The notes beneath the pieces were generated by a model, which saw only the letters and a list, made by a program, of their open reading frames with translations, was not told the origin of the DNA and did no database searches. This document shows positions 37,272 to 64,000 of a stretch of DNA of 64,000 nt, piece by piece. The position numbers and the translations under genes were made by a program. The stretch lies in NCBI GenBank assembly GCA_002786025.1, contig NHNW01000055.1, forward strand, positions 212,728 through 276,727. The letters run 5' to 3'. This stretch comes from Zasmidium citrigriseum. Its lineage: Eukaryota; Ascomycota; Dothideomycetes; Mycosphaerellales; Mycosphaerellaceae. Positions within the stretch are counted from its first letter, which is position 1. Every line of letters starts with the position of its first letter.

Positions 37272-38000
37272 TAAGTTAAATACTATTATAATAATAGTAA
37301 GATAAAAGTCCTTTTCTCTATAGATATAAGCCTTCTACTATTCTATTATTTATAGAAGAAGAGCTAATTACTTTTATAGGTAAAATATATCTAAAGCTTA
37401 AGAAGTTTATATTCTATAAGGCTATATCTATTAAGAAAGCTAGACTATTTCTTTAAGATTTAGACTTAATTTTTAGCCTATCTAGGTAAATCTATAGTAT
37501 AGATAAAGTAAAGATACTATATAGTATTATATATCTTATATATAAAACGAGTAAGTATTAGTATATAGACTATAAGATTAAAGAGCTAGATTAAGGATAC
37601 CTATATACTAACTTTAAGATATAGTATCTTAATATAGTTAGGAACCTAGTAAATTATATACTTACTATTACTTTTAAGTATAAGTAATATTATTAGTATT
37701 AGAATTAGGATATTAAATAATTTATATCTAAATTAAATATCCTTAAGAATTAACTTAAAGACTACCTTAAGCTATAGAAGATATATTATCTTCTTATAAA
37801 GCTTAATCTAAACCTTTATAGTACTATTATTAAGTACTACGAGATTCTAAAGTAATAATATAAACTTATTATACTAGTAACCTATATTAAAACTACTAAT
37901 AAACTAATCTCTAGGAATAAGTAAGATTATAAGAGTAATAATTATAAGAAGAAAGTAAGTAGCTATAGCGCTACTATACTATACTATTAAAAAACTATAG
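36620..38000 (+). pseudogene. Gag-like coding remnant
   Basis: In plus orientation, reading TAG/TAA as Gln/Trp, a frame of about 440 codons appears. An N-terminal helical part is followed by an Asn-rich linker encoded by AAT repeats. Then comes a region with the spacing of LTR-element capsid proteins: FIFYKAISIKKARLFLQDL, ILYSIIYL, QYYQYQNQDIKQFISKLNIL, KLNLNLYSTIIKYYEILKQQ. It ends in a Lys-rich stretch. No protease, RT or LTR follows, so this would be a truncated or non-autonomous element. The assignment rests on pattern only. Between 36,211 and 36,620 nothing is recognised. Confidence 0.4.
37015..37275 (+). repeat. AAT trinucleotide repeats inside the gag-like remnant
   Basis: Runs of AAT occur near 37,019-37,031, 37,055-37,071 and 37,238-37,270, the last about ten units. 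They encode poly-Asn in the frame of the surrounding remnant, so they may be an expanded low-complexity linker rather than independent microsatellites. Confidence 0.6.
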
Positions 38001-38559
38001 TTTTTTAGTTATATTATTTTTAATTTTAACTCTATTTTTACTTTTTCTATATTCTCTACTCTAAATAATAGAGGGTTACCTAAGAAACTATTACTAGATT
38101 TAGCCTAGCTTACCTATAATAAATTACTAAACTTCCTATAGCTCCCTATAGATTAGTTTAGCTCTATAGAAAATTATTTTAGGGTTAGTTATAATTTTCC
38201 TATATCTACTACGCTTAAAAGTATCCTAGATAAAAATATCTTAGCTAGTAGAGTCTCCGTTCCTTTAAAATAAATTAAAAATTAAAGGAAATAGTAGTTT
38301 TAGGACTAAAACCCTCTAAAGACGGATTATTCTAGGCCTACTAATACTTTTTTCGAAATCTATATAAAATTTTAGTCTAGAAAATATCTCTAACTATCCT
38401 AGAATAATTTAGGAAGGGTAAGGAATAAAAGCTATAAGTTAGGCGAGTAAGTTTAAGGTAAAGTATAAAAGTACTATATCTTAGCTAGATAGTCTCTATT
38501 TAACTTCCTATCTTCTAGGCTAACCTTCTAGGCCCTAAGGAATAATATAGAATAGGTCC

Positions 38560-40600
38560 TAGAGTCGTAGAACGTAAAGGGCTAATAGTACCTAGTTATT
38601 ACTATTTTAATATATTTTTATATTCTATAATAAGGTTAACTATATCTACTTTATCTTAACCTCTACTATTTAGGATAAAACTATCTAAATAATCTCTTCT
38701 ACTCTCCTCGAGACTAAAATAAGTATCTAGACGCCTCTTAAAGGATAGGATCTAGTAGTAATAGGTAGAGGAAAGGTATAATAATAATAGAGAAATTAAC
38801 CTCTATCTTACGCTTAGGTATATACTTTAAGAGAATAGCCTACCTATAGTATAGCTTAGAGTAGACGATTCTCTAGTAAAGACGCCTCTCGATACCCTCT
38901 AATACTTACTCTCTAATATAATAGTAAGCTTATAGAATAAGGAGTAAAGCGTAAAAGAGAATACCTTCTCTTCTATCTCTACTATATCTCCTACTTAAAT
39001 CTTAGTTAAAAGAGTTATTAACTATACTAAAGAAGAGATAGAGGGTTATATTTAATACCCCTAAGGTTAAATAGTAGTCGAGCTAGGAGCTTATTAACCC
39101 CTAAGAGTAAGATAAGGTCCTTTATAACTAGAGTATACCTTTTCCTATAAATAGGTAATAAATATTAGGCTTTATAGAAGAGTAATAGCCTACCTTTAGC
39201 TTAGTCGACTAGACTATAGAACTATAAATCGTAGTATTACTAATCTATATATATATCTATTAAGTATAAAAGAGAGCGTTATTTATTAATAAATATAATA
39301 AATATACTACCTTAAGAGATAGAGAGAGTTAGATAGTATTTTACCTACTATAAATACTATACTATTATTCCCTTATAGTTTATTACTACCTATCCTAAAT
39401 TAAAGGAAGAGTATAAAGTATAATAGAGCTAGCTAAAGACTCTACTATCTATAGCTAACTTTAGAGTATATAGATAGCTAGATCTATTTCTTTCTAAGTA
39501 GAATAAAGATAGTACTACTTAAAGTAGAAGATAACCTCTATCCCTTAAATATATAGTATAAGGAAAGTACTATAGTATCTACCTTAGAATAAATACTCTA
39601 TCGTATTATAATAAGAGATAGGGCTAATAGAATTAATAACCTAAATAAGCTATTCTACTTATATAGGAGGTAACTATAGAGTATTATCTAGATAGTACTT
39701 AGGTAGTAGTAGTATTATAAAGTAGTAACGCCTTCTACTATAGAATTAGAGAGTTATACCTAAAGTACTAGTAATAATAGTACTATTATTAAGTATTAAG
39801 GATAGTAGATACTTATAAGAAGCTTAGTATATAAAAGTATAGCTAATAAGTAAGGGCTCTTATAGTCTATTTAGGTAGTAGAGTTTTAGAGATATATAGT
39901 CTTAGAGTAGGACTTCTAAAGTAGTAGATTAGAATATCTTCTCTTTATAGTATAGAATAGATAAGGTTCTACTTTAGCTAAGAGTTATTACGCCTTAGAA
40001 TAGGTCCTAATACTTACCTTAATCTAGGAGTAGCGCTACTAGATAGTATAACTAGGATAAAGTATAAGATAATACTAGTTATATATAATACTTTATAGTT
40101 TTAACTTAAAGTTAAAGAGAATAGAAGAGCTTAGGAGGTTATAGAATAAATAACTATACCTCTTAGAGTATACTACTATCTAAGACTCTTAGACTTATAG
40201 AGTATCTACCTTAGTACTCTTTAAAATACTAGAGTAGAAGGGTCTAAGTAAGTATTATATAGTTAGCTACTTTACTCTACTAGTAGGTCTATAAAGGGCG
40301 TCTAGAAGTAGGCTAATTAGGTAGTATAGTATAGTAGAGTAAGATAAGAATACTATTATACTAGGCTATAGAATAGTCTTATAAAGTCTATTACTAACTA
40401 CTTTCTACTATAGAATAGAGTTAGTATCTATATACTAAAGATAGTAAGTCGCTTAGTAGGTAGACTAAATCCTAGTAGAATAGAGTAGGAGTTATACTAT
40501 AGTAGAGTCTTAGTATACTAGACTATATAATATAATATATAGTAGTAGCTAATATATTTAAGAGTAGAGAGCCTTTACCTTACTATCTATTAAGCTTAGT
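38560..40600 (+). pseudogene. Unidentified coding remnant, plus strand
   Basis: With TAG/TAA read as Gln/Trp, one plus frame shows sustained protein-like patterning for about 650 codons, for example EEIEGYIQYPQGQIVVELGA, LLFPYSLLLPILNQRKS and YFFLSRIKIVLLKVEDNLYP. The sense strand is markedly purine-rich. No reverse transcriptase, transposase or other family motif was recognised, and no terminal repeats were found. Because TGA cannot survive RIP and TAG/TAA are ambiguous, frame openness is weak evidence; the amino-acid pattern is the only support. From 38,000 to 38,560 nothing is recognised. Confidence 0.3.
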
Positions 40601-41389
40601 AGTAAGGTAATTGTCTTTATACTATATTCTATTATTACTATATATTAAGTAATCGCTTAGATATATATACTAGAGTAAGTAAAGTATACCTATATTAATA
40701 TCCTTTCTTATAAGTAGGACTATTATTAGTAGAAAGGACCTACTTCTAGAAATCTTAGAGAGAGTAGAAGATAGAAGGTATACTAGAACGAGGATAGTAG
40801 TTAGGACTACTAGATAGGTATAGGACTAGGTACCTCTACTAGGAATAGACTAAAGATATAAAAGATATAAATACTAGTAGTTAAGAGTATATCTACTACT
40901 AGAATTAGTATCTAAAGCTAAGTATAGAGTAGAATAGGGTAACGAGGTCCTTATTAATAGGAATATATAGAATAAGAGAGGTATAGAGAGTTTACTTCTC
41001 TATAAAGAGTAGATAGATAGAAGGAATATAGTAGACTAGATATATAGAAGAGGATAACTTACTAAATAGGGTATAGAAAGAAAGGTAAGTATTAAAGACG
41101 AAAGAGCTTACTATAAGCTCCGTCTTAGTAGAGTAACTAAGTAGAGGGATAGCTAGAAATAGAGTTACTACTTAGTTACTATATATAAGTACTAAGTAGT
41201 TACCTTAGGCGTCCTCTTAGACCTATAGTATAAGGTACTATTAATAGTATAAGAGAAAAGTAATATTCCTAAGCGTAGATAGAGTATAGAGTAGTAGTAT
41301 AAAATAGTAGTAGAGGAGTAGTAAATAGTACCTAAGATAGAAAAGTAGAGAATAGTTTAGCTTAGTTAAACTCTTAAATCCTTAACTTC

Positions 41390-42600
41390 TACTATTACTC
41401 TTACTACTTAAGCTAAGTCTTTATAATATCGAAGTTATAAATCCTTAGTAAACTATCTACTTAGCTTCCTTAGACCTTTAAACCCTTTCTTACTAATCCT
41501 TCTCTTTCTTCTCTCTACCTCTTTTCTACTTTTCTTCTTCTTTTCTTCTACTACTTCTTTCTAAGTTTATCCCTCTCTAAGACTTATAATCTAAGAATTA
41601 TAAGTACTTAGAGTAGTACTAAACTTAGAGAAGAGTAGTAGATACTCCTTTCTCTTATCCTTTCTCTAGAAAAGTTCTACCTTTTCTAAAACCTTCTTAT
41701 ACTTCTTCCTCTTCTTCTTTTCCTTTCTCTTCCTTTTTCTCTTCTTCTCTTCCTCTTCTATAGATATATAATCTCTATAAAGAAGATCCTCTATCTTATA
41801 GATAGTATAATTATCTAGCTCTTCTATAGTAGAAGTTCTAATAAACTCCTTTATAGTAGCCTTCTTCTCCTCTTTATATAATCTATTAAAAGGATTTATA
41901 CTCTTAAGGAAGTATAAATTATCTTTAATATCTATATAGATATAATAGATACTATTATAAGCTAGATTCTCCTTAAAAGTATTAAACTCCTTAGAAGAAT
42001 AGATACCTTTAGTAAGGAAAGTCTTAACTAGACCTATAAATAAATTAGTAGACTTTCTCTAGTAGTAGAGCTTTAGACTTACTTAGGTCCTTATAGTAGT
42101 AACTATACCTTATTAGATAGAAGTTTAAGTAGAGAAATATCTTCTTAAAATAACTCTTCTTTAAGATATAAGAAGCTATAAACTTTCTTAGATCTAGATA
42201 TAGATCTACTAAAGAACTACTACTCTTATAGAGTAGATCTATAGAGAATAAGTTAGTAAAGACCTTTCTAATATCTAGAGTAGAGTACTTACTAGTAACC
42301 TCTAGATATTATATAAGTTATAGTACTTAAGCCTCTTAATAAAGTAGATAATTCTAACTCTATTAAGATAGTCTATAAGTACTTTACTTTAGTCTCTCTC
42401 TATCTTATTAAAAGTATTAATAATAGACTTAATAGTCTTATCTACTTTAGTAGAAGAGACTTTAGTACTATTAAGAATATACTTCTTAATAAAATAGAGT
42501 AGAGTAATAGTAGTAGTAGTACTAGTACTAGATATCTATAGATATATATTAGTTAAGCCTCTACTAAAGTCTCTAGTAATATTTACTTATCTTTACTAGT
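41390..42600 (-). pseudogene. Unidentified coding remnant, minus strand, Lys/Glu-rich C-terminus
   Basis: The minus strand reads as a plausible frame from about 42,550. Examples are VSSTKVDKTIKSIINTFNKI, VLIDYLNRVRIIYFIKRLKY and NPFNRLYKEEKKATIKEF, followed by a strongly charged tail (EEEEKRRKRKRKGKEEKEEV, then KKKKSRKEVERRKRRI). The shape (helical body, basic-acidic tail) could be a gag or a DNA-binding protein, but no family is recognised. It converges on the plus-strand remnant ending near 40,600. Between 40,600 and 41,390 no coding pattern was recognised. Confidence 0.3.
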
Positions 42601-53200: not shown

Positions 53201-56200
53201 GGTAAGATTATATCCCGTCTATATATAACTTTAGTAGGGGTACGGCTAGTAGAATACTTAATAGTAGTCTAATCTACCTAGAGGTAGGTATCGACCTATT
53301 TCTTCTAGCTAGTCTAGTTTTCTTCCCCTAAGTTATAGTAGATCTTAGAAATAGCTTTAATTAATAGCCTATAATATCGTTCGACGATTCTATTAGCCTA
53401 GGGATAATAGGCTATAATCTTAATAGCTTTAATACTTATTCTCCTAAGTAATCGTTCTACTTCTTTAGTATTCTTAGTTCTACTATTAAAGAAGATATAG
53501 TATATATAGCCGTACCTATAGAAGACGTCTTTATAAAGAAAGTTAGTAACTATTAGAGCTATAACCTAGTTACTAGCGTAATAGATAACCCTTACCTTAG
53601 CCTAGCTACTAAGATACTCGACTATAACTATAAGGCTTCCTTTATCGTCTACTTATATAATATCGACGCCCTATCTAGTACTAATAGAGGCTTACTATAA
53701 GTACTAAGCTAGCGAGAACTATTAATCCTTATAGTCTTTCTTATAGACTTTATATACTCGAACTTAGTTCTTAATATCTCTTATTATACTAGCCTAGTAG
53801 TACTAAGCTCTAATCGCTATAAGAGTAGCCTCGCGTCCCTTATAGCCTCGCTAATTATAAAGAGACTCGAAGATTCTCTTCTAAGTAGCTAGGTTATTAA
53901 TTACTACCTATAGTAGGGCGTTATATATAGCTTAGAAAAAGAGCTTCTAGTTCCTAACTAAATATCTTATAGTACGGATCTTCTAGTAATAGAAGTCTAA
54001 GGATTTAACTCGTACTAGGCGCTAACTAGTTACTTTAAAGAAAGCGATATTATAAGAGTTATCGCTATAGTCCCTATTAAGGAATCGCCTAGCTAGAAGA
54101 TCGCCTAGTCCTAAGTATTAAGTTTCTTAATAGTTTAAAGGACTAGCTTTAGGAGTCTCTTAGCGATCCTTAGTAACTATAATAGATATAGATATAACTA
54201 TATTAGATATATTAATATTAGAAAGGTTAATATAGTCTTTAAAGTCTATATTTATATCCTCTAAAAGTATTAAGTTAGGGTACTAGATTACTATAAAGTT
54301 AATATCTAGGAAAGAAGCGTTATAGACTAAGATATTAAAGAAAGCTAAGTCGATTATTTCCTTAACGTCGTTATCTTAAATAATCTCGTTAAGATCTTAA
54401 GGCGTTACTAACCTACGAGAGAGTCTATCTATAGCTATATACTTCTTACTAGGAACGTAAACGATCTTAAAGTCGAAGAGCCTAATCTAGGCTATCTAGT
54501 AAGTAAGAGCTACGTTTAGTAGATTAGAATATACTATATTAAGCTAGTAAATTAGAGTCTAGGTATCTAGTTCTAGTAGAAAGTAGACTCCCTAGAGGTA
54601 TAGCTTAAGCTTCTTAAGAATATTAAGGACGGCCTTATATTCTTTACGTCTAGCGTCGAGCTTTAGTTATCCTTTACTCTAGACTCTGCTCTCGTATCTA
54701 ACTAGGTACCTCTTACTATTCTTATCTATTTACTATAGGACGGCTTTCTAGCTAGCTCTACTTATATTAACGGAAAGAATAATTAGGCCGCTATATAGGC
54801 TATAGTCGAGAGATACTAGAACTAGCGCTATAGTAAGAAGATACTTTAAGGATTTAAAGGCGTAATTACTAAGAATACTCTAGATAAAAGTAGTCTTTCC
54901 TTCCTCTATTTTCTTAACTTTAATAAGATTATAAAGAGGCGAGGAGATAATTATATATCGAGGAATCTAGATCTAGTAGAATATATAAACTCTAAGGAAA
55001 GAGCGAACTTCGGTAGCGTTTAAAGGAATAGGCTAGTTAATAATCTTATTAATACGAGATAGATTAGGATACCTCTCCTTACTACTATAGATATACCTAA
55101 TAACCTTAGTAGATTCGTAAAGGAAGTAAGACTTCGCTAGAGTAATAGTTAAGCTAGCTCGTTTAAGATTAGTAAGAACGTTATCTAAAGTTTAAATAGC
55201 TATAACTACCTAGTTACGAAGTCTAGGAGCGATAAACTCTTCTTTAATATAATAGGAAGGTCCCTTAATACTAACGTTATTAACGAAAACTCTTATAGTA
55301 TATATAATATAATCTAAAATAATATAGTAAAGAGCCCGCTAAAACTAGGTAACTAAATTTATACTACTTTAAGGTAGAGTTATTATCCGAAGAAGTCTAA
55401 AAGGAGTCTAGAAAGCTATAAGATCTTAAGATTCTTTAGCGAGTAGAAGTTAGTTATAGCTACTATAAAGATTAATAAGACTAAAGTATCTAAGGTAGGT
55501 AAAGTCTTCTAAGAAGGTATCCGTTTCTAGAGGAATATATACGTCCCTAATAGTAATACGATTAATTTACTAAGTATTATTAATAAGCCGATATTTCCTA
55601 GAGACGCTCTTAGAAATAATAAACTAGTTATTAGAGTAAGAGCTTTTACTATACTCTAGAATACTATTATTAATCCTCTTATAAAGTATATTATTAATAA
55701 TAGGCTCTAGGGACTTTAGAATCTTATACCTATATTTAGGTACCTAGGCTTAATAAGGAATAGTCTTAATTACCTAAGGAGGTATAACGTCTAGATATAT
55801 TTACCTAATCTCGCTAAAGGTCTAAGATAGAGTATTCTTATAGTTAAAGAGTATCTCTCTAAATAGGTCTATTTCTTCGTTAGTAAGGTTAATACTAGGC
55901 TTAATACTACTAAGTCTTTCTTAGGTAAGTCTCTTTCTATAAGGAATATTAGAGAACTTCTTAATAAGGAAGACGTTATTATAGGGGCTAGTCCCTAGTA
56001 GTATAGTAGCTTCCCTTACTAAGTAATCCTTCTTCTAGTTAATATTACTATATACTAGTATAGTTTCTAAGTTAGATATAGGAGTAGGTATAGGCCTAAC
56101 CTTCTTATCTCTTCTCTTATATATAGTAAAGGTATTAAGTTATATAGGGACTATAATTAGCCCTTAGGGAAGAGGCTTTCTTATAATAGCTAGGTTATAA

Positions 56201-56451
56201 GTTAGCTTTATAGTATATCTAAAGTAAGATATATATAATATCCTACTTTAGATTCTAGTTTATATAAATTATCTAGTAGTAGGCTAAGATCTTAGCGCGA
56301 AGGGAATATAGATTAATCTATTAGTAGGTCCCTCTAAGTAGTTAGAGTTAGGAAGGATATAGCTAGTAGTATTAGCGTCTAGCGATAATAGTCTATTCTA
56401 GCTAATAGGTAAGACGTTAGAGTATCGAGTTAACCTAGACTATATAGCGCT
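50282..56451 (-). mobile_element. Second Ty3/gypsy element, 5'-truncated at an internal telomere tract
   Basis: On minus a full pol order is readable. RT at about 55,900-55,150 shows SVSRKYRLINNTQQINRITI, then LINLYSSYNQLLLAKESQDL and the active-site relic VFVNNVSIKGPS, which in many fungal gypsy elements is FVDDVGIKGP. RNase H is at about 54,850-54,400. Integrase at about 53,700-53,050 shows KAIKIIAYYPQANRIVERYY, then SKIYYNLGE and PIELVY. A C-terminal part reads KVGDYILLRRLD. A polypurine-like tract with LTR start lies at 50,281. Upstream of RT the gag region and the 5' LTR are absent; the sequence stops at 56,451 against TTAGGG repeats. The 50,300-52,600 stretch is unassigned and unusually long for a 3' region. 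This family differs from the element at 29,457. Confidence 0.85.
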
Positions 56452-56467
56452 TTAGGGTTAGGGTTAG
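56452..56467 (+). repeat. Interstitial telomeric repeat (TTAGGG)2TTAG
   Basis: The 16-bp tract TTAGGGTTAGGGTTAG is in the same orientation as the terminal telomere, 7.4 kb before it. It abuts the truncated gypsy element on its left. Two and two-thirds units by chance are unlikely but not impossible in TA-rich DNA. Confidence 0.85.
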
Positions 56468-56484
56468 CTTCGTATATCGACGAC

Positions 56485-56532
56485 GCGGACTAATTAGCTT
56501 ATAAGAGTAGCTAGCTAGCTAATTACGTCCGC
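56485..56532. repeat. Inverted repeat, 15/16-bp arms
   Basis: The left arm GCGGACTAATTAGCT (56,485-56,499) pairs with AGCTAATTACGTCCGC (56,517-56,532), with one unpaired base and a 17-bp loop. It lies 18 bp distal to the internal telomere tract. It could form a hairpin or be a binding site or element end. Confidence 0.65.
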
Positions 56533-57199
56533 CGCTTATACTCTTTACTTTCGCGTACTTCTCTAGGATACCTATAATACTTATAATATTACCTACGTAC
56601 CTTTCTATATACTACGCTTATAAATCTCGAATATCGACCGTCGATATATCCTACCTTTAGGCCGTAATACGGGCGGTTAGTCGTCGTCGCTAGCGCGTAC
56701 GCTTCTTACTAGCTCTCTAGTAGAAAGAATTACGCCTATTATAGTTCCTATAATCGTATCCTTTTAGTAATAATAGTCGTACGTATCGAGCGAAGAAAGT
56801 CGATCCCTTCCGTAGTTCTCTATCGTATACTATAGGCTCTTACTACTATCGTACTATCGAGGTAGGCGAGTAAATCTCTTTACCTTAAGTTATACTACTA
56901 TACTACGCCTACCCGACTAATTAGACGGCTAACCCGCTAATCTAGCTAATTAGCGATCGCCCTTTACTCTTCTACCTTCTATAGTCCTTTAACTAAACGG
57001 AAAATTTCTTCTCGCTCCTTAAATCTATATAGTAAGCGAGCTCCTACTATATACGATATATAAAGGTAGTACTATATTACTACCTACTAAAGTCTCGCCT
57101 ATCGTATCGATACTACTAAAGCCGTTCGCGCTTAGGGTTATAGTCCTTAACGACTAGCCTGCCCTACCCGTAATATATAATATAAATAGAGTCGCCGCC

Positions 57200-60100
57200 T
57201 AGCGACCTACTTCTTAATTTCTCGGTACTAAGTAGCTAGTAGAGAACCTATAACTCCTAGCCGACGTACGTATAGACTACCTATCTATTCCTCTTATAGT
57301 ATTAATACTACCTAAATAGCCTAGTAATTACTAGTACTACCCGCTAACTACGGCGCTATCGTCTATACTACCTATAACCTAATCTACCTACGCGGCTCTA
57401 GCGCTAGTACTACCTACTATACTCTATACCCCTAACTAGTACTACCGACTTACCTACTATCTAATATAGTATCGTCCCCTCGCTTCTATACCGCTTTATA
57501 CTACTATACTAGTTATTCCTCCTATAGGATAGCGCTAACTTCTCTCTCGGCTAGTATATAGTTAGTACTCTTCTAGGCCTATTCTATAGAACTCGCTCCT
57601 ACCGCCTTATACTATATTATATAGCGCTCTCCTCCCGAGTCGTAAGTACTATAAATAGGTATTAAAGACCTAGGACCTAACGCGAAGTACTATAGAACTA
57701 CTTATTTAACTTACTTAACTACTACCCGTACCTATACTTATACTAGCGGGCTTATTACTATAACTATCTATCCTAGCCCTACTAGTATCTACTACTATCG
57801 CCTAACTCGATACTACTAGTTAGTCGATACCTCTAAATAATAGCCCGTCTATATCTAGTATATATAGAGGTCGTAGTAGGAGAGCGAGAGGTCGTAGTAA
57901 TAGAGGAGTTAAACGGACTATAGTATACTAAAGCTAGAACCCTCCTATAATAGCGCTATAGGCCTATATAGGCAGTAGTAGTAGAGGTCGTTCGAGGCCT
58001 ATATCCTCGAACGCTCCTAACTATATACTATCGCTAGCGGTATATTAGGATCGACTCTCGTTACCTCTAGTTAACCTATCCCTTATCGAGGAAGGCGGAG
58101 CCTTCTAGACTACCGACCTCTAGGTCTCTAATCCTTTCGAAGGTTACTATAATCTCGCTAACGACTCTAAGCTATCTCCTCTACCTCGCTAGGCTACTAA
58201 TACCTAATCTACGCCGCTCTAACTAGAATATATATATAGTAGTACCCTATTATATAATACTATAAGGCTCGTAGTATATAGCGTATCTCTTACTACCTAG
58301 AACTAATAACCTACTAATATATACTATTACCGCGCTATTCTATAACGCCCTCGATAGACCTAAACTAGTATAAGCTCGCGCTAGTACGTTTAGACCTCCC
58401 TAGAACTAGTAATATCCCTTCTAGTATCGTCGCTAGTACTACCTTTAAGGATATCCCTAGCGGGGCGTATAACCTTAAGGCCGAATATCCTACGCCGAAT
58501 AAGTATATCTCTTAATTAACATCTACCTAACCGCGCGGCTAAAGTTATAGCCTCGACCTAACGTCTACCTAGTACTAATCCCTCCTACCTACTAGCCTAC
58601 TATCTAACTCCCCTCCTAAGCTCTTTAACGGTAGGCGCCTAGCCGACTCGCTAATAGACCTATTTACCTACCCCTAGCCCTTCGAATACGCTATAATCCT
58701 CTACTAGCCTCCTACTCCGCCTACGTAACTAATAGAGTAGCGTATCTTAGCTAGCCGCCCTTGTACGAGAATCTAGTCGTAATCGTAAGTTAGTATACGA
58801 GAGGAGTCGCTATAGTAATAAAGATAATATAATAGGGTTATTAAGCGAGTTAGATAATAATTCGCTAAGGAATACTCTATTAAATACTAATATTCGACCC
58901 GCCGAGGCCTTAGCGCTAGCTCTACTATATTAAGCTAATAATTACGTAAAAGGTAGAATCTAATTAAGTCTTCGACTAGAAGGATATAAGTATCCTAACG
59001 ACGCCCTTACTAACAACGGTTTCGACGAGAGTGTTATATATACGCTCCCTAACCTTATTAATAGCTTCCTTAGGATTTATACTAACGAAAGCTTAATAGT
59101 TAACGAGGAGCCTAGTCGCTCGAACCCTAACGATAGTACTAGCGCTATTATTAAAGATATCTTATCCTAAACGGCCTCTAAAGGTAAACTCCCTACTATA
59201 AACTCTACTACTAGACCTAACGAATATAGGCTCTAGTCTACTCTTCTCGCTAGCGATACTAAATACGCTAATCGCCCCTCTACGCTCTTCTCGCCCTCCT
59301 TATAGTTAGAGTCTAACGTATAGTTCTTACTACGTATTACCCTTAGCCTCTACTAGTCTTACCTTCTCTATTAAGGTAAAGATATCGAAATTATACGAGC
59401 CTATAATATAGACGTAGTTATCGTACCTCTTAACTCCCTAGTAGTATACTCGTCTAGGTTAGAGCTATTCTATACTTAACGCTTCGCGAAGATAATCTAC
59501 GCTAACTAGTATACGACTATTACCCTACTAGCTATTACCCTATAAGAATATAAATATTTTCGACTTATACGAGATACTAGTACTACTAACTTCGATACGT
59601 TTATATTCTTCCTATATCTTATAGTACCTCCTTAAGATTATAAAGTAAAATTTACTAAACTAGAATAATAGTAGGCTTAGGTATATCTTAATAAAGAGGA
59701 GTAGAGGTACTTTATAGATAATATACTTATACTCGCGGTCGCCGAGATTTATTCTATAGATATCGCCTAGTATTATCTACGAACGTTCGACGAGGTATAT
59801 AGCCGCTACTATACCTAACGCTATAAAGCTATTACTATTAGCGACTTAGTCGCGGAGAGCGAATTATCCTATTCGCTCCTAAATCGATACCTTCCTCCTA
59901 CCGCTACGAGCGAGCTACTCCCTCTTATATATCTCTAAGAATCTATACTTAGACGTATTAGCGCTTATAATAGGGTAGTCGAATTCTAGGACCCCTAACT
60001 AGTAGCCGTTATATATAGCTATAAGGGGCGATATAATACGCCTACTATTATAGAACTCCGTTAGGCGATATACGAAGACCTCTCGCGCTAGTTCGATACG

Positions 60101-62670
60101 CGCTCTATTATACTCGACTATACCTAGATCGACTTTACGTACTAAGATTTTACGAAATACGCGCCTAGTTTAGAATACGAGAATAAACCCCTCGTCCTAC
60201 TCTAGGCTAATAGTTATAACTAATAGGATATAAAGCGTCTAGGTATTAAGGTAACCTAAGAGTTCTAGTAGTATAGTACCCTCTAAGCTTCTAGTATATA
60301 CGGCTCGCTAGCTAAGGAAGATCCTCTATATAAGGGCGGCTACGCCTATATATAGTCGTATAATCCTATTAAAAACCTTTTCGCTAGTATTAATTGTACC
60401 TCCGCTCTAGCCTTCTTCGTAACTAACTTCTATCTTCTAGTATTCTCTACTAGTACCCTAGACGAATATAAGTAGTATAGTAAATATAGCTATAGTAGTT
60501 CTAATACTCGTCGCTTACTCTTTAAAGTACTAAAGGCGACTATTATACGGATCTATTATATACTTAATATAGTATCCTATAGAGTCTATAGCTACTTATC
60601 GTAGGAAGAGTACTATATTTTCCTTAACCTCCTAGATACTATCGAAATCCCTAACGATATATACTAGCCTATAGTTCGAGATAGGCGCTATCTACCTTTC
60701 TACGTCCTATACCTAGAAGACGTTATAAATTTTATTCGTATCTAAGCTAACCGCTACCTTATAGTAATTTATAGTATCTTAACCCTATATCCTAGGGAAG
60801 GATCTCTTCTACTACTATTATAGCTAAAATAGGCCGAATATACTAACGTAGCGATACTCGCCGTCCTCTTTGTATATCTTACTATTACTATTAATAGTAA
60901 TAACCTAAGTCTCTCCTAATTTCGCTATAAGGAATACTAGGTATCTCGCCCTACTAATACTCTAAGTCGCCGCCCTAGAAACCCTTAGGATTACTTACCG
61001 AAAAGATCGAGGCGGAGGTAGTTAAGAGCTTAATAAGGTACCGCTAGTTAGGCCTATAAAACTAAGCTATAGATACCTAGTAAAAATCCTACCGCGACTT
61101 AGGCGGCGGACGAGGATACTTAGCTCTAGAGCCTCTATAGCGATCCTTCTAAAGTTAGTACTATTAAACGCTATAGGCTCGACTTCGAGGAGTCGTTAAA
61201 GACTACTAGTATACTTTAGTTCCTAGCCTAATTATTTAGTTAGACTCCCTTACCCGCTTTCTACGAAGATATACTTAGACGTACCGCTTAGGGTACTAAC
61301 TACCTATATCGTAATCCGACTACTATAATACGACTTTAGCGCGAGTAGCTATTCTAAGATTACGTCGAAGAGAAGATTATATAACTCGTTACGGCTAAAC
61401 GAAACTATAAATAAGGCCTTATACTACGCGTAGAATTCCGCGCGGTAGAAGATAATATATTAGAGACGCTCTAGGAATTATATATATTCCGATACTATTA
61501 TTAGATCCTTACCGTAATAGCTCGCTCTTTAGGGTATAGAGACGAGATAAGACTTATCGATATTAATAACGTATCTATAGGGCCTAACGAGCGTCTTAGT
61601 CTATATAGGCTATCTTATAGTCTTATTAGCCGTACTAGTAGGTATATTCCCCTTATCGTATTTAGTTAATATCGAGAGGGTAACTTACGAGAATATAGGT
61701 ATAGTTACTTAGAAAATAACTAGGAGACTAAACTAAAGATCCTATTTAATTAGCGGCCCTCTTTCGATATATATCGCTATACTAACTAGGAGGACTACCC
61801 CTAGCGCTATTAGACGCGGTACTATTATCGTCGCCTATAAAAACTACTTAACCTATAGGACGCTAACGTATAGCTAGACGGCTTACTAGAGTATACTAAA
61901 TAATATATCTAGATTATCCCTCGCTTCGAAACGGATAAAGTATACGTCCTAAAACCTTTCCCTAAGTAAATATTTAGATATAAGATACTATTATAGTAGC
62001 CTAGCGAAGACGGTATCCTTAAGGTCGTACTTAAGATAAATATAACCTTATCTATATAGTACTAGATAGTATAAAAGGCCGTCCGTTAGTTTACCGTAAA
62101 ACCGACCGATATTTTTAATAGACACGTTAGTATATAGTAATTAATCGCTAAATACCCTAACGAGAAGCGTATAACTAACGACCTCGAACTTATTTATATA
62201 AAAGATAAAGGTCTCGTAAACGGTAAACTACTACGTACTCTACTAGATAGTAATTAGTTTAAACCTATACTAACCGCTCTAGACCTAGAAGATACTAAAA
62301 ATATATAAGCTAAGCCCTCCTTACCTATAGACTAACCGTAGACTATAACTATTAGAATATATTACCGCCTAGCGACCTTTAGCTATATAGCGACGCTTAG
62401 CTAACCTAAATACGCTCGCCGACTAGTAACTATCTTTTACTCTTTAAATACTATTACTATCTATATAGTAATAGCGCTATAATACAATAATCTATATCTA
62501 TTACGACGCTAAACGCTAATAGGTAAACCTAGTTACTACCCCGATTATACTTATCTTACGTAATATAGTTTATTTAAAGTCTAGTCTATCCCTACGTAGC
62601 GGTCGCTATTCTTATCCTTACTATCCTATTCGATACTATAGCGTTCCGCGGTACGCGCGCCTACGATTCT
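57200..62670 (+). pseudogene. Telomere-proximal long coding remnant, unidentified
   Basis: With TAG/TAA as Gln/Trp, 57,200-58,850 reads as a Pro/Ser/Thr/Gln-rich disordered region with RG motifs (YRGRSRRARGRSNRGVKR near 57,860). After a change of frame at about 58,850-58,950 a globular-looking frame of about 1,240 codons follows, for example GKDIEIIRAYNIDVVIVPLN, RYYYRRLQKLLNLQDANVQL and VKPTDIFNRHVSIQQLIAKY. No helicase (Walker A or DEAH), RT or transposase motif was recognised, so it is not an obvious telomere-linked RecQ helicase. It occupies most of the segment between the internal and terminal telomere repeats. The function is unknown. From 56,533 to 57,200 nothing is recognised. Confidence 0.4.
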
Positions 62671-62929
62671 AAGATACTAGCGATTTTAAATATATTTATT
62701 AATTATACAATAGCTCGCTAAAGCTTCCTAATTCTATTACGCTAGCGTAAGTACTAACCTTATTTATAGTCGCGCTATATTAACGCGCTCCTCTAATACG
62801 AATCCTATCCTACTCTAAATACTAACTCTTTATATCTATTATCTGTAACTACTATATCTCGTATACGCTATATCCGCTTTCTAATAGCGCCTATAAGCCC
62901 CTCTCTACCTCTATAGTAACTAGGCGTTA

Positions 62930-63883
62930 CGACTTAGTTAGCCGCTAATACAACCCTCGAATAGTAGGACGAGTAGTAGGAAGAGTAGTAGTAAAAGTAG
63001 TAGGAAGAGTAGTAGTAGTATATAGAAGAAGAGTAAAAAGAAAAGTAAGATAAAGTAGAGGAATAGGAAGAGGAAGACTTATAAAAGTAGGAATATACTT
63101 ACGTTATTAGACGTATATATAATAAGGCTTTAGTCGCCTAGGTACCGTATTAAGGTTGTTATTTTAAACCCTCGTAGATTCCGTATAAGAATCTTAGCGA
63201 GGACTATTTCGCTATTAAAGCTATCCTTATAGAAGACTAGCGCTTCTTCCTAGTATAGTAGGAGTCTAACGCGTATACTAGTACTAAATACGCGCCGTAG
63301 TAGGTTACTAAGCGTAATGTAACTAAATCCCTTATAGCCGAGTAGAGACGTAAGAATCCTACTATTACTACTAGTATATCCCTTACTACGAGAATCTATA
63401 TAGGGCCTACTAGCGCCTCTATAACTATTAACGAAGCGCTTAAGGGTCGACTCGTAGTTAATAACTCCTCCCCTCTTACTACTAAGAAGTCTATTAAAGC
63501 TAACGCTAAAGAGAAGCCTTCTCGCCTATCTCGACCTTTACCTAGCTCGCCTTATATCTCTACTAAAGCTCTACGAGTCGAGAAACGTAAGAAATCGTTA
63601 TCCTAACTACCTAAATACCGCCGCTCTCTTCCGAAAGCCTTCGATCGGTCCCCTAAACTATAAGAGGAGACTATCTAGCCCTCTCGCGAGCTAATAGACT
63701 CGTATAAGTAACTATTATACGCTACTAAGTACGTAGTCGAAGAAGAGTCGCTAGAACTAAACGCTAGTATACTATAGGTGTTAGAAGCCGTAGTATAGAT
63801 CGCGTTACTAGTAAAAGGTCTACTAACTCCTACTCCTAGCTAAACGGTACCTTAGTAGCTCGAATACGTCTTATCTCCTACCT
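62930..63883 (+). pseudogene. Q/E-rich coding remnant with chromodomain-like segment, ends at telomere
   Basis: The stretch 62,960-63,090 encodes a Gln/Glu/Lys-rich run. Next, at about 63,110-63,350, comes IEDQRFFLVQQESNAYTS, then VTKRNVTKSLIAEQRRK. If the TAG codons were Trp, this matches the aromatic pattern of a chromodomain (YLVxWxG... TWxP... LIxxW). The rest (SRPLPSSPYISTKALRVEKR, then KYVVEEESLELNASILQVLE) is basic and then helical. The frame runs without obvious end into the TTAGGG array at 63,884, so the gene may be cut by the chromosome end. Assignment is by pattern only. Confidence 0.35.
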
Positions 63884-64000
63884 AAGGGTTAGGGTTAGGG
63901 TTAGGGTTAGGGTTAGGGTTAGGGTTAGGGTTAGGGTTAGGGTTAGGGTTAGGGTTAGGGTTAGGGTTAGGGTTAGGGTTAGGGTTAGGGTTAGGGTTAG
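63884..64000 (+). repeat. Terminal telomere, (TTAGGG)n
   Basis: From 63,889 to 64,000 the sequence is perfect TTAGGG repeats (about 18.7 units), preceded by AAGGG. The G-rich strand runs 5'->3' toward the window end, as required for a right chromosome end. It shows that the window reaches the physical end of the chromosome assembly. Confidence 0.98.

Follow-up and report, generated by a model that had tools for sequence, protein, structure and literature searches.

Interstitial telomere tracts in fungal subtelomeres are readily mistaken for scars of insertion or of chromosome healing. We have analysed a window of 64 000 nucleotides of Zasmidium citrigriseum DNA (bases 212728–276727 of contig C100, which is 276727 bp long; the window reaches its right end), in which a short TTAGGG tract lies some 7.4 kb from the terminal telomere, close to a truncated Ty3/gypsy element. 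A first-pass annotation had read this tract as the place where a chromosome, broken inside the gypsy, was healed by telomerase at 56452 before it gained the distal segment. Comparison of copies across the genome suggests instead that the tract is part of the conserved start of a repeated unit, termed type A here; in the same genome there are other tracts that appear to be real scars, and the two cases can therefore be separated by comparing copies. All searches of the fungus's own genome were made against the 44.4-Mb draft assembly of 148 contigs.

Of the systems already described, the MoTeR elements of Magnaporthe oryzae resemble the segment in their position at chromosome ends, in the telomere-type repeats at their 5' end, in the presence of interstitial TTAGGG and in the new capping of truncated ends. 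They are, however, retrotransposons with the 5' end towards the telomere, an orientation deduced from 5'-truncated terminal copies, whereas the 5' end here faces the centromere and no reverse transcriptase was found (PMC7367193, in the portions available). The FoTeRs of Fusarium oxysporum also have a short telomere motif beside a conserved 5' flank, have decayed by repeat-induced point mutation (RIP) and frequently occur as truncated copies. Their junctions carry TAACCC on both sides, which on our interpretation of Table 3 of that account places the 3' end proximally, whereas TTAGGG stands on the coding strand here, at a proximal 5' end (PMC12857005, in the sections available). The Terminons of bdelloid rotifers are likewise large chromosome-end elements with telomere-repeat stretches of their own, but they attach by the 3' end and encode a reverse transcriptase, whereas our segment has the repeat at its 5' end and no reverse transcriptase was seen (PMC6431247, from the available part of the text). 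Of the systems compared, these three behave most like the segment; its orientation and the absence of a recognisable reverse transcriptase argue against assigning it to the MoTeR/FoTeR group. The conserved frame described below is on the + strand and runs towards the telomere, and the telomere repeats found at MoTeR and FoTeR junctions have a counterpart only in a tract that lies 13 bp inside the unit, next to a flank that is gypsy and not telomere.

Two further systems are alike in other respects. Telomere-linked helicase (TLH) regions are gene-bearing, repeated chromosome-end regions with truncated copies and interstitial telomere repeats (PMC12857005, as far as the available sections describe them). 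In the present element no RecQ or DEAD helicase domain was found in the six frames of the segment, where RIP could hide a degraded one. Starships are giant transposons with a defined 5' end, genes that point inwards and a DUF3435 tyrosine recombinase, the captain, near the 5' end; they also have a defined 3' end and make a short target-site duplication. A defined 5' end with inward genes is present here also, and one relative of our unit measures at least 15.8 kb; the difference lies in the captain. DUF3435 (PF11917) gave no match in the element copies (four of four candidates scored), although a stop-riddled DUF3435 gene is present on contig C70 (three pieces with internal stops, E 3.9e-22); the only other match was a weak one on C116. 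In the available parts of the literature on fungal elements of this kind, namely the MoTeR, FoTeR and TLH work, nothing was recognised as this element.

The 5' terminus of the unit

There are 18 exact matches to TTAGGGTTAGGGTTAG in the window, and the one considered here, on the + strand, is the sole match outside the terminal array; the mean number in 100 dinucleotide shuffles of the window was 0.00 for this 16-mer. The orientation first reported for the tract, the same as that of the terminal array, is confirmed.

The position of the gypsy boundary needed to be revised. A genome search with the 999-bp gypsy end (55440–56438) gave 22 matches including the window itself. Ten other copies reach 56438, nine over all 999 bp and one over the last 101 bp at the start of a contig, and it is in these ten that the continuation was compared, with 11 partial matches (65–92%) left aside. 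Beyond 56438 all ten share one continuation, GTAGGTATAAGG or near it, which contains no telomere tract. Because they all read on with this tract-free sequence, the gypsy copy of the window is interrupted at 56438/56439, 13 bases ahead of the tract. The earlier annotation was right that the gypsy is cut at the proximal side of the segment and slightly wrong about where, and the idea that the tract might be conserved within other gypsy copies finds no support in their shared continuation.

A DNA search with 56468–63884 revealed one other long copy, on contig C107, in two pieces (13871–11117 and 6688–2054) with 92–93% identity, together with four short matches on C80 and C87. The C107 copy sits at the left end of a contig that starts with a telomere. 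It becomes homologous to the window at base 56439, where ACTATATAGCGCT leads into the TTAGGG tract, and the sequence ahead of this start is unrelated to the flank in the window and has no other match in the genome. The two type A copies differ by 537 substitutions, 523 of them transitions and 14 transversions, which shows that they were nearly identical before RIP.

More distant relatives share the same start. A protein search with the + frame 58541–62440, stops taken as X, recovered the C107 copy and, in addition, one stretch on C80 and three on C87, these four with 33–43% protein identity, and in tblastx comparisons the strongest matches to relatives fell in the same frame and strand. The relatives include a 15.8-kb unit, type B, of which there are two copies (C87:372488–388318 and C80:388821–404637; 85.7% identity). 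At their start both carry ACCTATATAGGCTTT ahead of the tract, which is almost intact in C87 and decayed in C80, and their flanks are unrelated to one another. On C87 the flank is another member of the family, type C, apparently cut inside its gene. In DNA, types A and B are alike over about 30 bp at the start (93%) and, within the gene, over some 230 bp (67%), with otherwise only short patches.

The type A pair starts exactly at the box, as does the match of A to B, and the type B pair within about 10 bp of it, its alignment beginning 8–9 bases upstream of the ACCTATATAGGCTTT box (TAGGTT.. in both copies). The tract is accordingly 13 bp inside the unit in type A and 13 bp or somewhat more in type B. 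A pattern made from this 5' motif matches the 44.4-Mb genome four times, always where a unit starts, and not at all when reversed as a control; since the pattern was derived from those four starts, what is informative is the position of the matches and that there are no others. Taken at the level of sequence, the unit seems to have a conserved 5' terminus of about 30 bp, composed of an AT-rich box, AC[C]TATATAG, and then the TTAGGG tract. The shared starts of A and B at the box imply that the tract belongs to this terminus rather than being a telomere that was added to broken gypsy. Healing of the gypsy at 56452 is contradicted by the 13 bp ahead of the tract, which are identical in C107 and have a related motif in C87 and C80.

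When compared with the terminal 1.5 kb at each of 18 other chromosome ends, the last 1.5 kb of the window gave no match at E 1e-6; the set includes C107, where the shared part lies further in, and excludes C132, which also ends in a telomere. Terminal or inverted repeats were sought in the segment and gave weak pairs only. The copy on C107 carries a 4.4-kb insert (C107:6689–11116), with a gypsy RNase H-like peptide visible by eye at its end; about 24 bp of the target is missing at the site of this insert.

The distal junction and the coding content

At its distal end the window reads TCCTACCTAA then GGGTTAGGG, and C107 reads TCCTACCTAA then TACTTAGCC. The terminal array starts with GGG at 63886, directly after the CCTAA common to both. 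Past this point the ORF2 (second open reading frame) of C107 meets five stops over 184 codons, compared with 21 and 28 for the remaining two forward frames. Since C107 carries the frame onward where the window turns to telomere, the type A copy of the window would have lost its end within ORF2, at about 63885, and acquired a new telomere there. The abrupt switch to terminal TTAGGG after a short seed, set against the continuation in C107, is what is expected of de novo telomere addition. In Magnaporthe, truncation and de novo telomere addition are documented at chromosome ends, with 19 of 24 de novo telomeres on seeds of 1–4 nt (PMC7367193, in the portions available). The type C copy on C80 is in frame to within a few bases of its terminal telomere.

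From about 30 kb to its end the window is saturated by RIP, with a (CA+TG)/(AC+GT) ratio of 0.00–0.03 compared with 1.12–1.42 over the first 28 kb; hardly any CA or TG is left, and there is no break in the saturation at the proximal gypsy/unit junction. It is for this reason that the coding of the segment looks like remnants. Having no CA or TG, the telomere unit itself survives RIP. The combination of TTAGGG telomeres with RIP is in keeping with a filamentous ascomycete. On C107, RIP reaches to about 150 bp from the telomere. Contig C87 is RIPped throughout 365000–393500 and also in five of five samples of 0.8 kb taken between 400 and 450 kb (GC content 0.41–0.47), and its terminal region of roughly 95 kb is probably RIPped.

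No Pfam family was found above cut-off in the six frames of the segment or in part of the frames of its relatives, and in none of the six frames of the segment was a reverse transcriptase recognised, as the first-pass annotation had already remarked. As controls, the gypsy RNase H was recognised above cut-off in the adjoining RIPped DNA (Table 1), the DUF3435 gene of C70 was recognised in spite of its stops, and a gypsy integrase zinc finger was detected in RIPped DNA below the curated cut-off (E 4.9e-05). RIP weakens the detection of domains, and a missing domain is no proof of absence. The protein family had no match among protein clusters, a database whose fungal coverage is uncertain, and no useful match in the PDB, profile search included; a plasmid search was likewise fruitless. 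An AlphaFold model of the conserved core had a mean predicted local distance difference test score (pLDDT) of 28 and was not used. Conservation nevertheless indicates that the protein family of the unit is real, if unnamed. A chromodomain suspected by eye in ORF2 was unsupported by Pfam or the PDB on short pieces, and Pfam matches to DUF645 and YaiA were far below cut-off.

A genome-wide search for DEAD helicases, in which 37 of 75 candidates were scored, listed 41 matches, none of them on C80, C87, C100 or C107. Three DEAD-helicase genes (C58:837096–837719, C135:85283–85906 and C136:29535–30158) have identical scores and stop-free frames of 717 aa, and represent either a recent un-RIPped duplication or assembly redundancy.

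Table 1. Features at the distal end of the window, with the basis of each assignment.
Feature	Positions	Strand	Basis
RNase H domain of the interrupted Ty3/gypsy element (RIPped)	54541..54783	-	Pfam RT_RNaseH, E 9.7e-07, above cut-off, stops as X
End of gypsy stretch, common to 10 other copies, which continue past 56438	55440..56438	-	Genome search
Putative RIPped mobile-element-like unit (type A), 5' 7447 bp	56439..63885	+	92-93% identical to C107
ACTATATAGCGCT box, first bases of unit	56439..56451	+	Identical in C107; ACCTATATAGGCTTT at the matching place in C87 and C80
TTAGGGTTAGGGTTAG tract in 5' terminus of unit	56452..56467	+	Unchanged in C107, almost unchanged in C87, decayed in C80
ORF1 region (95 TAG/TAA stops read through)	58541..62440	+	Core ~59336-61990, 33-43% protein identity to C87/C80
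ORF2 region (frame of 56440)	62930..63885	+	Same frame continues in C107
Terminal (TTAGGG)n array, apparently added de novo to broken unit	63886..64000	+	CCTAA/GGGTTAG, compared with CCTAA/TACTTAG in C107

Origin of the segment

We think it likely that the segment is the 5' part of a mobile-element-like unit inactivated by RIP, which has its own conserved 5' terminus carrying the tract and was later cut by a new telomere. That the unit was mobile is suggested by its 5' ends: a precise end that recurs in unrelated flanks, as is typical of transposable elements, is seen in four copies from two families, at the 5' side only. The unit would have been placed with this defined end inside the gypsy, to judge from its recurrent start in unrelated surroundings, and near-identical copies were RIPped, as the excess of transitions shows. 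The chromosome would have broken in ORF2 at about 63885, so that what remained of unit and gypsy was lost together with all DNA beyond them, and the break would have been capped by telomerase on a seed of at most a few bases, given that C107 reads on at this point. This breakage may precede or follow RIP. As for the tract, we infer that it is probably a binding site of a telomere-repeat protein, acting at the start of transcription or in the recognition of ends. If the unit is indeed a transposon, it would represent a chromosome-end family without a recognisable reverse transcriptase, oriented opposite to the known ones and with a built-in telomere motif of testable purpose.

Several points weigh against a transposon. 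The DNA examined yielded no 3' end and no target-site duplication, and neither a terminal repeat nor an enzyme for transposition. The four 5' ends come in two pairs only, and the exact first base of type B is uncertain, its two copies being alike already for up to about 10 bp ahead of the box. For the copies on C107, C87 and C80, no empty site came to light. An untruncated insertion would be followed distally by the remainder of the gypsy; none was found there, and one has to suppose that it was lost with the chromosome end. Similarly, the protein search gave no match to the remainder of the type C gene that type B interrupts on C87.

Each of the two type A copies is situated at a contig end that carries a telomere, and exchanges between ends that involve interstitial telomeres have been described in Magnaporthe (PMC7367193, in the portions available). 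A terminal stretch might accordingly have been copied or translocated from one end to another, by break-induced replication or end joining, as a subtelomeric segmental duplication that carried the tract along without any mobile element; the gypsy junction, which by eye has no microhomology, would suit end joining. We regard this as unlikely, though worth serious consideration. Random breaks would not be expected to place the breakpoints of two barely alignable pairs at the same motif, exactly in type A and within about 10 bp in type B, and the four flanks are unrelated. It seems to us rather improbable that the family, lacking a reverse transcriptase, spreads by means of the tract itself, a built-in 5' TTAGGG seed that eroded or broken telomere-bearing ends would invade and from which they would copy the element outwards to a new end, breaks being readily capped; the type C unit on C80, situated behind a healed tract and without a TATATAG box, would then, at the same low likelihood, be a product of end invasion. 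More generally, a chromosome-end element without reverse transcriptase, as the earlier annotation had envisaged, is compatible with our data, but its residence need not be strictly telomeric, as the type B copy on C87 starts about 88 kb from the contig end.

The remaining explanations carry little weight with us. Breakage of the gypsy and healing by telomerase at 56452, with the distal segment gained later, would account for a tract in telomere orientation beside a truncated gypsy and has a parallel in what is visible at C80:404635 and C107:15332–15391; the 13 non-telomeric bases that separate gypsy from tract, with their counterparts in C107, C87 and C80, make it very improbable in the window. 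A draft assembly in 148 contigs might have joined gypsy, segment and telomere by error, but RIP saturation runs uninterrupted through the proximal junction and the 5' terminus recurs at three other places, which leaves an artefact with a very slight chance. A telomere-targeted non-long-terminal-repeat retrotransposon of the MoTeR/FoTeR type, decayed past recognition, is hardly credible. Position at a chromosome end, a telomere motif at one end, decay by RIP and truncated copies are all features of FoTeRs (PMC12857005, in the sections available), yet the six frames yielded no reverse transcriptase even though the gypsy RNase H, and weakly (below its curated cut-off) an integrase domain, could be recognised in RIPped DNA, and the coding here points to the telomere, opposite to that of MoTeR and FoTeR.

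Interstitial tracts elsewhere in the genome

The sequence of breakage, healing and later extension, which does not hold for the window, does seem to have left traces at two other places. At C80:404635–404655 the type B copy matches that of C87 up to TTATTA; it is then followed by GGGTTAGGGTAGGGTTAG and a type C unit whose reading frame runs up to the terminal telomere, whereas C87 reads on past the same point with ATATATTC. On C107 a copy of window block 37972–42027 (92%) is truncated and gives way to about 60 bp of degenerate TTAGGG/TTAGAG (C107:15332–15391). Both look like scars of healed ends that later gained distal sequence, the former as a unit cut, a telomere tract and the next unit.

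Exact tracts in the phase of that in the window number 22 in the genome, 11 terminal and 11 interior, and two of the interior ones are the starts of the type A copies. The other nine (C1:171949, C1:1286670, C15:5343, C26:7139, C54:866358, C57:136330, C57:710445, C109:120104 and C128:60941) lie in RIPped DNA, with 0–1 CA and 0–1 TG per 161–162 bp. The sequences at C1:1286670 and on C109 are alike after the (TTAGGG)n tract and unlike in the roughly 60 bp before it, and on C1 there follows a stretch that resembles a gypsy integrase, with a score below cut-off. Telomere tracts may thus be present in some gypsies of this genome as well.

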